From NCBI RefSeq assembly GCF_010994095.1, contig NZ_WJYO01000002.1, forward strand, positions 496,001 to 560,000: 64,000 nucleotides of DNA. The letters are read 5' to 3'. The notes under the pieces were generated by a model. That model ran no database searches, was not told the origin of the DNA, and was given only the letters and a program-made list of their open reading frames with translations. The position numbers were made by a program, and so were the translations under genes. Positions 20,894 through 22,509 of this stretch are shown piece by piece (the stretch's first letter is position 1; the number at the start of each line of letters is the position of its first letter). This stretch comes from Mumia xiangluensis (GTDB taxonomy: Bacteria > Actinomycetota > Actinomycetes > Propionibacteriales > Nocardioidaceae).

Positions 20894-20922
20894 TTGATAC
20901 CTATACCCCCTATGGGTATGGT
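20894..20922 (+). promoter_or_regulatory. CsoR-like copper operator inside a leaderless promoter
   Basis: TTGATA (20894-20899), exactly 17 bp, TATGGT (20917-20922), then 6 nt to the ATG of the DUF305 gene. The spacer and its edges hold the pseudo-palindrome ATACCC-CCTAT-GGGTAT (20903-20919), which closely resembles CsoR operators such as those of copZA. A bound repressor would block RNA polymerase directly. The csoR gene itself is not in the window. Confidence 0.65.
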
Positions 20923-20928
20923 GCGAGG

Positions 20929-21573
20929 ATGATTACCGCGAGCAGCTTCAACCACACCGCACGACGACGTGCCGCAGCCCTCGTCACTGCCGTCGCCTTC
21001 GGCCTCGGTGTCTCCGCCTGCGGGGCTGACGACTCCGGGTCCGGGTCCGCTGGCGGCGGCCACGACGGCCACGGGGCGTCGCAGAGCTCCGACCAGACGC
21101 AGAGCCCGGACGCGGCCGGCGACCACAACGCCGCAGACGTGACGTTCGCGCAGCAGATGATCCCCCACCACCGGCAGGCGCTCGAGATGGCAGCGCTCGC
21201 GCCGACCCGTGCCGGAGCCGAGGTCGAGGACCTCGCGGCGCGCATCGCCGCAGCCCAGGATCCCGAGATCGCGACCATGACCGGATGGCTCGAGGAGTGG
21301 GGCGAGGAGGTTCCCGCGGACGACGCGCACGCCGACCACGGCGACATGGAGGGGATGATGTCGCCCGAGGACCTCGAGCGCCTCGAGGGTCTGAGCGGCG
21401 CGTCGTTCGACGAGGAGTTCCTCCGCCAGATGATCGTCCACCACGAAGGGGCGGTCACGATGGCGAAGAACCAGATCGCCGACGGCGCGAACCCCGAGGC
21501 GGTCGCGCTGGCAGAGGCCGTGGTCGACGCACAGCAGTCCGAGATCGACGAGATGGCAGCACTCCTCGGCTGA
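20929..21573 (+). CDS. DUF305 lipoprotein, probable copper-responsive
   Basis: 214 residues. Residues 1-31 are a lipoprotein signal (RRR, hydrophobic core, lipobox VSAC). After a Ser/Gly/His-rich linker come two DUF305 halves, each with a His pair: [16 protein letters not shown] and [16 protein letters not shown], plus a His/Met/Asp-rich segment [11 protein letters not shown], all plausible metal ligands. DUF305 proteins include copper-binding CopM of cyanobacteria. The CsoR-like operator upstream supports a role in extracytoplasmic copper handling. GAGG directly abuts the ATG, too close for a ribosome site, which fits a leaderless message. Confidence 0.85.
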
Positions 21574-21597
21574 GCGAGGGCGACCTACGCTGGGAGC

Positions 21598-22509
21598 GTG
21601 ACTCACCAGCTCCCGCTCCCCCTCGACGACCTCGTGGTCGTCGACGGGGCGCTCGCCACCGAGCTCGAACGCCATGGCGCCGACATCACGAGTGCGCTCT
21701 GGTCGGCAGCCCTGCTTCGGGACGACCCGGGCATGATCGCCCGCGTGCACCGCGACTACCTCGACGCCGGGGCCGACGTGCTCATCACGGCGAGCTACCA
21801 GGCCACGGTCGGGGGGTTCGGCCGGCTCGGCATCCCGGTCGCGGACGCAGAACGTCTCATCACCTCCTCGGTCACGCTGGCCCGTGACGTGCGCGACGCC
21901 TTCGTCGCGGAGCACCCGGGGCGCCGCCCGCTGGTCGCCGCGTCGGTCGGCCCGTACGGCGCCGCGCTGGCCGACGGCTCGGAGTACCGCGGCGACTACG
22001 GTCTCGACGTGGCGGCGCTGCGTGCCTTCCACGCGGACCGGATGCGCCTGCTCGTCGGGGCCGGCCCGGACCTGCTCGCCTGCGAGACCGTGCCGTCGGC
22101 GGTCGAGGCGCGGGCGCTCGCCGAGCTCCTCGCCGGTGCTGACGTGCCCGGGTGGATCACGTTCACCGGACGCGACGACCACCACATCAGCGACGGCACG
22201 CCGGTCGCCGAGGTGGCGCGGATGGTGGCGGACCATGACGTCGCCGCGATCGGCATCAACTGCACACCCCTCGAGCACGTCGCCCCGCTGGTCGACGACA
22301 TCGCCGCCGTCACCGACCTCCCGGTCGTCGTCTACCCGAACTCCGGCGAGGTCTGGGACGCCGAGCAGCGCCGCTGGACCGGCTCGTCGGCACGCGGGTC
22401 GTGGGCGACGTGGGTACGGCGCTGGCGCGACGCCGGCGCAGTCCTCGTCGGCGGGTGCTGCCGGACGACTCCGGACGACGTCGCCGAGATCGCCGCCGTA
22501 CGCGCATAG
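21598..22509 (+). CDS. mmuM: homocysteine S-methyltransferase
   Basis: Methylates homocysteine from S-methylmethionine (or SAM) to give methionine. 303 residues, TIM barrel with zinc-binding cysteines in GINCTP (about 221) and GGCCRT (about 285-286). VVDGALATELERHG and DLLACETVPS are family signatures. Start GTG 21598 has TACGCT 6 nt upstream, the leaderless pattern. No S-methylmethionine permease is adjacent; the following exporter has its own promoter-like sequence. Confidence 0.93.
   Translation: MTHQLPLPLDDLVVVDGALATELERHGADITSALWSAALLRDDPGMIARVHRDYLDAGADVLITASYQATVGGFGRLGIPVADAERLITSSVTLARDVRDAFVAEHPGRRPLVAASVGPYGAALADGSEYRGDYGLDVAALRAFHADRMRLLVGAGPDLLACETVPSAVEARALAELLAGADVPGWITFTGRDDHHISDGTPVAEVARMVADHDVAAIGINCTPLEHVAPLVDDIAAVTDLPVVVYPNSGEVWDAEQRRWTGSSARGSWATWVRRWRDAGAVLVGGCCRTTPDDVAEIAAVRA

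Follow-up and report, generated by a model that had tools for sequence, protein, structure and literature searches.

The DUF305 gene in the analysed stretch of DNA (the window; 64,000 nt, G+C ~71%, G000:C2:496001-560000 of a 4.62-Mb actinobacterial genome) most likely belongs, as a lone gene set apart from the others, to the CsoR copper regulon of that genome, with a product predicted to bind copper outside the membrane. The evidence consists of an operator-like box, the geometry of the promoter that surrounds it, a CsoR encoded elsewhere in the genome, the set of genes that share the box, the family membership of the product and its predicted fold, all read or computed from sequence. The features on which the analysis is built are as follows.

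20894-20899, + strand: putative −35 hexamer TTGATA, read directly from the sequence.
20903-20919, no strand assigned: predicted CsoR type 2 operator ATACCC-N5-GGGTAT, exact match.
20917-20922, + strand: putative −10 hexamer TATGGT, read directly, its TAT common to the operator.
20929-21573, + strand: DUF305/CopM-family lipoprotein gene with a putative leaderless start (ORF, PF03713, NF049983).
21010-21021, + strand: lipobox V-S-A-C with Cys31, recognized by eye in the translation.
21136-21567, + strand: DUF305 domain (residues 70-213), modelled as a pair of helical hairpins (Pfam; AlphaFold2 model).
21166-21171, + strand: H80-H81, the first His-His motif, with M77 and M87 on either side (alignment).
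21319-21375, + strand: Met/His/acid-rich linker between the two halves, residues ~131-149 (direct reading).
21439-21444, + strand: H171-H172, the second His-His motif, with M168 and M178 on either side (alignment).

The ORF encodes 214 residues and its ATG is the first ATG, GTG or TTG past the upstream stop codon. In the Pfam search the product matches PF03713 (DUF305) with E 2e-49 and 168 bits against a cut-off of 27, it exceeds the cut-off of the NCBIfam CopM model NF049983 (101.7 against 90 bits), and it matches PDB CopM chains at E 4.9e-20; nearly all of its closest named homologues belong to Actinomycetota. The AlphaFold2 model (mean pLDDT 83, at least 90 at 140 of 214 residues) contains long helices at residues 68-88, 97-123, 157-185 and 189-213 and is predicted to adopt the CopM fold, as 2qf9, 3bt5 and CopM entries take up the first eleven Foldseek ranks (E 5.1e-8 to 1.8e-5), Cu(I)-, Cu(II)- and Ag-bound CopM among them. 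The original prediction of an exported lipoprotein with two His-His motifs and a Met/His-rich segment, resembling cyanobacterial CopM, thus agrees with the lipobox, the two motifs, the linker, the model score and the predicted fold. Lipidation at Cys31 and export are predicted from the lipobox, and copper binding from homology to CopM, which is itself no proof. In the available text on Synechocystis CopM, that protein is described as copper-induced, as binding Cu(I) and as carrying one HH motif per DUF305 domain (PMC4335983).

It is improbable, in our estimation, that the product is CsoR-controlled and yet no CopM-type copper binder, storing or handling another metal or serving a structural role. 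The predicted fold does weakly resemble Dps/ferritin-like bundles, the best Foldseek match outside DUF305/CopM (E 7e-3), and Pfam also reports DUF4142, but the best structural and profile matches are to DUF305/CopM, and all four histidines of the His-His motifs and the neighbouring M77, M87, M168 and M178 are unchanged in all 25 aligned rows (a set that takes in the window protein and its paralogue), with M140 and M144 of the linker at least 90% conserved. Moreover, the gene carries the same switch as copper exporters. The paralogue, encoded at G000:C1:191903, also scores above the CopM cut-off and its gene has no box.

Direct reading of 20894-20931 bears out the proposed TTGATA-N17-TATGGT-N6-ATG string, in which N6 is GCGAGG and the ATG occupies 20929-20931, with a box in the spacer that reads ATACCC-CCTAT-GGGTAT. 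The original prediction placed this box exactly between the −35 and −10 hexamers; its position in the spacer stands, the left arm beginning 3 nt past the −35, but strict separation does not, since the last three bases of the operator, TAT (20917-20919), are also the first three of the −10. The −10 ends 6 nt before the ATG, which is the first in-frame start, and the same geometry is found at csoR. The claimed likeness to CsoR operators holds as well, as both arms and the N5 spacer equal the Streptomyces lividans CsoR consensus, given in the available text as a pseudopalindrome of ATACCC and GGGTAT arms with N5 between them (PMC3902906).

The exact 17-bp box occurs at three places in the genome: before csoR-copZ-copA, before the gene for a His-rich copper-type P-ATPase, and before the DUF305 gene. 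The second of these encodes a CopB-type ATPase of 700 residues that scores 570.1 against a cut-off of 397 with the copper-ATPase subfamily model and also exceeds the cadmium-family cut-off (387.7 against 313.5). A genome-wide search for the box beside copA or csoR, which had been suggested as a check, returns the identical box before csoR-copZ-copA with the same TATGGT-N6-ATG as at the DUF305 gene, and the CopB-type ATPase promoter has TATGGT-N7-ATG. Because the layout of its switch is that of the copper-export genes, the DUF305 gene is very probably turned on by copper. At L007:1501-1515, the CopB-type ATPase operator overlaps the stop codon with which an ORF upstream ends; by eye, that ORF resembles a metalloprotease.

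Two CsoR-family proteins were found by profile search in the genome, so the regulator required by the original prediction, a CsoR encoded elsewhere, has a candidate with Cys-His-Cys ligands. This protein, CsoR (G000:C1:416855; PF02583 E 1.6e-29), has S. lividans CsoR (4adz, E 3.9e-32) as its nearest known structure, with the Cys-His-Cys ligands aligned; its nearest NCBIfam model is RicR, for which it scores below the cut-off (141.8 against 175). Its gene is followed by that of an HMA-domain CopZ, which scores under the cut-offs of the CopZ models, and then by copA. That no csoR, copZ or copA lies near the DUF305 gene was also confirmed: tblastn of the window (E <= 1e-3) with the genome's own CsoR, CstR-like, CopZ, CopA, CopB-type and DUF305 proteins gave only the self-match of the DUF305 protein.

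The other family member, encoded at G000:C2:606907, has a Cys/Cys pair without the His of CsoR, and its best PDB match is 7mq1, labelled csoR there, which we take to be a CstR. CstRs are persulfide-sensing repressors that belong to the protein family of CsoR and recognize a similar operator. From its residues and surroundings we infer that the G000:C2:606907 protein is CstR-like. Were it to bind the DUF305 box, the gene would answer to sulfane sulfur and not to copper, a reading that we consider very unlikely. The protein is encoded in the same genome, ~90 kb from the DUF305 gene, with a similar box upstream of its own gene, and an Arg and a Gln matching R57 and Q81 of S. lividans CsoR, mutation of which abolished binding according to the available text (PMC3902906), appear to be kept in both CsoR-family proteins. 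However, it lacks the His ligand, and its box has an N4 spacer: exact N4 boxes are found in three of the six genus genomes, 3 of 3 adjoining the CstR-like gene, whereas the N5 leaderless boxes of the genus, 16 of 16, lie at csoR, CopB-type ATPase or DUF305 genes. Spacer length thus separates the predicted sites of the two regulators, and because the DUF305 box is N5 and the CstR-like paralogue has an N4 box of its own, the DUF305 box points to CsoR. Regulation of the DUF305 gene by CsoR is, on this reading of the sequence, well supported. The N4-boxed CstR-like gene (G000:C2:606820-606835, L280; also L278 and L279) faces a very small ORF rich in Cys, MCRxVxCxTCxKTTWAGCGQ, past which an ORF resembling, by eye, a CoA-disulfide reductase/rhodanese fusion lies further along in the window's genome; the gene and its neighbours form a possible sulfane-sulfur unit.

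In the six genus genomes the leaderless-box pattern has 16 matches against 1 for a reversed-pattern control, and these matches precede csoR (6), the CopB-type ATPase gene (6) or DUF305 (4). The boxed DUF305 genes, in four of the six genomes, all adjoin recO, and in three boxed orthologues a TTGA lies at the same distance from the box. Elsewhere in the genus the right-hand tract of boxed DUF305 genes is GGGG (3 of 3), and in the window it is only GGG, so repression may be weaker here and the window box may be a weaker operator. The DUF305 gene of G001 has no box of its own and stands third in line behind a boxed CopB-type ATPase gene; in this locus (L235) the single box is followed by the ATPase gene, then by a small ORF that contains Met and His and overlaps the end of the ATPase gene, and finally by DUF305. 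In G005 the genus search found only DUF305 without a box. Downstream in the window, a homocysteine S-methyltransferase gene follows the DUF305 gene after only 24 nt (21574-21598), and a TACGCT-N6-GTG string suggests that it may have its own leaderless start; G003 has no close copy of it beside DUF305.

A chance origin of the palindrome, in an intergenic region rich in G+C, can be set aside with near certainty: loose matching does yield little or no excess, both in the genome (at up to two mismatches, 11 places for box and control alike; 5 against 3 for TACCC-N3-6-GGGTA) and for the box alone in the window (1 match against 0.20 expected at up to two mismatches, with at least one in 20 of 100 shuffles), but the exact box has three genome copies where a base composition of 71% G+C would give ~0.09, it is present once in the window and in 0 of 100 dinucleotide-preserving shuffles, as is the whole promoter-start string at up to two mismatches, and the distance from box to ATG is constant in the four genus genomes while the flanking bases vary. 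One genome site with two mismatches, C7:58681, was dropped; its neighbours, as judged by eye, are a tRNA-like stretch on one side and an integrase-like ORF on the other.

Of 100 genomes of the family, 69 contain leaderless-box matches, 127 in all; the control pattern gave 8. By best BLAST match the genes behind these boxes are csoR (49), CopA-like (11), CopB-like (7) and DUF305 (11); a further 18 of the 127 carry a DUF4396 motif, and 31 are unclassified, a group into which copZ starts would fall, as the BLAST reference set contained no CopZ, and of which several are short chance ORFs or come from taking the palindrome on the wrong strand. Among the matches listed, 23 of 150 DUF305 genes lie on the same strand within 5 kb downstream of a box, where ~0.14 would be expected, and 11 of these 23 are directly behind it. 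Membership of the DUF305 gene in the regulon of a CsoR encoded elsewhere is accordingly favoured by the Cys-His-Cys CsoR, by the threefold occurrence of the identical box and by the company of copper genes that the box keeps in genus and family. The 18 further proteins are small, often His-rich and share the motif HCLTGCA (for example L156, L158, L171, L177, L181 and L226); the one checked by Pfam is DUF4396, likely a copper-regulon membrane protein.

Of the nearest 80 named homologues, three (L043, L052 and L092) have the exact box at the gene start, which indicates that CsoR control is not general for the DUF305 family. A fourth exact match lies 774 nt before the matched segment in L082, and another ~540 nt upstream in L098, beyond the stretch used for the count of 80. 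When one mismatch and any upstream place are allowed, 11 of 80 homologues have a match, compared with 19 among 668 control stretches, each 500 nt long (exact matches in controls, 4 of 668). In the DUF305 locus of Mycolicibacterium moriokaense (L092:2801-2815) the exact box is 23 nt before the ATG, leaving room for a possible leader. Six Streptomyces loci (L045, L058, L069, L071, L074 and L097) have a degenerate box, [AC]ACCC-N5-GGGTA, ~600-830 nt before the DUF305 match, and in four of them (L058, L069, L071 and L074) a short ORF containing an MH(GAP) stretch lies around or behind this box and before DUF305; CsoR control of DUF305 may extend to Streptomyces in the form of an operon.

For a quick tree of DUF305 proteins, 131 loci were given and 117 kept after identical and short rows were dropped, which with the window protein makes 118; the tree has many open forks and long branches at L129, L143, L134 and L099. 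Fourteen of its rows are boxed, the window protein being counted twice (as win and L116). The boxed proteins of the genus form one starred clade and the remaining boxed rows are scattered, while the paralogue at G000:C1:191903 belongs to a separate starred clade. A single origin of boxed DUF305 genes is unsupported, as the tree needs seven label changes and the starred branches force at least two.

Copper-linked DUF305 proteins are already known under two-component systems. CopM (PDB 5fej/5ffa-e) shares with the window protein two HH-bearing halves and, as predicted here, export and the fold, but the available text describes it as periplasmic, partly extracellular and driven by CopRS (PMC4335983), whereas here a lipoprotein under a one-component repressor is predicted. 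The curA cluster of Myxococcus xanthus likewise has a DUF305 lipoprotein (MXAN_3416) beside a copper P-ATPase in a copper-tolerance cluster, though in the available account it is under the two-component CorSR and not CsoR, and is not a lone gene (PMC3707914). The S. lividans CsoR regulon has the same type 2 operator with its 5-nt spacer, provides the nearest CsoR structure and includes csoR and copper ATPase targets; the operators named in the available text are those of csoR, copZA1 and copZA2, whereas here the gene of a predicted surface DUF305 lipoprotein is boxed (PMC3902906). Further putative CsoR targets of S. coelicolor are given by locus tag (PMC6414726), and copper-induced secreted proteins of unknown function are described for Corynebacterium glutamicum (PMC3140484), in the text available for each. 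No paper treating DUF305 together with CsoR was found in the literature searched, within which the link between CsoR and a DUF305 lipoprotein appears to be new.

Building on these observations, we propose that at low copper apo-CsoR, encoded with copZ-copA, would occupy the operator, which takes up the spacer and overlaps the −10, and so block RNA polymerase. Rising cytosolic Cu(I) would bind the Cys-His-Cys site, CsoR would leave, and transcription would yield a leaderless mRNA whose 5' end is at or beside the ATG. After export, lipidation at Cys31 would anchor the product to the outside of the membrane. Copper would be bound there by the two helical hairpins, both of which carry a His-His motif with Met close by. 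There the lipoprotein may buffer, or hand on, the ion pumped out by CopA and the co-regulated CopB-type ATPase. A wider generalization, to which we give even chances, is that CsoR of the family runs scattered leaderless units on a compact cassette (−35, operator, −10 and ATG in ~40 bp), and that this cassette has repeatedly recruited extracytoplasmic and membrane copper-handling proteins, such as DUF305 lipoproteins and DUF4396 membrane proteins, whereby cytosolic Cu(I) would adjust extracytoplasmic copper buffering together with efflux.

If the proposed regulation holds, the widespread Gram-positive DUF305 family would be linked to CsoR, and a copper sensor of the cytosol would govern the buffering of copper on the other side of the membrane. 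Copper induction of the DUF305 gene and its constitutive expression in a csoR mutant are predicted, and the box likewise marks DUF4396 as a candidate membrane protein of the copper regulon. The DUF305 gene would thereby be a new member of a type of copper defence that is already known.
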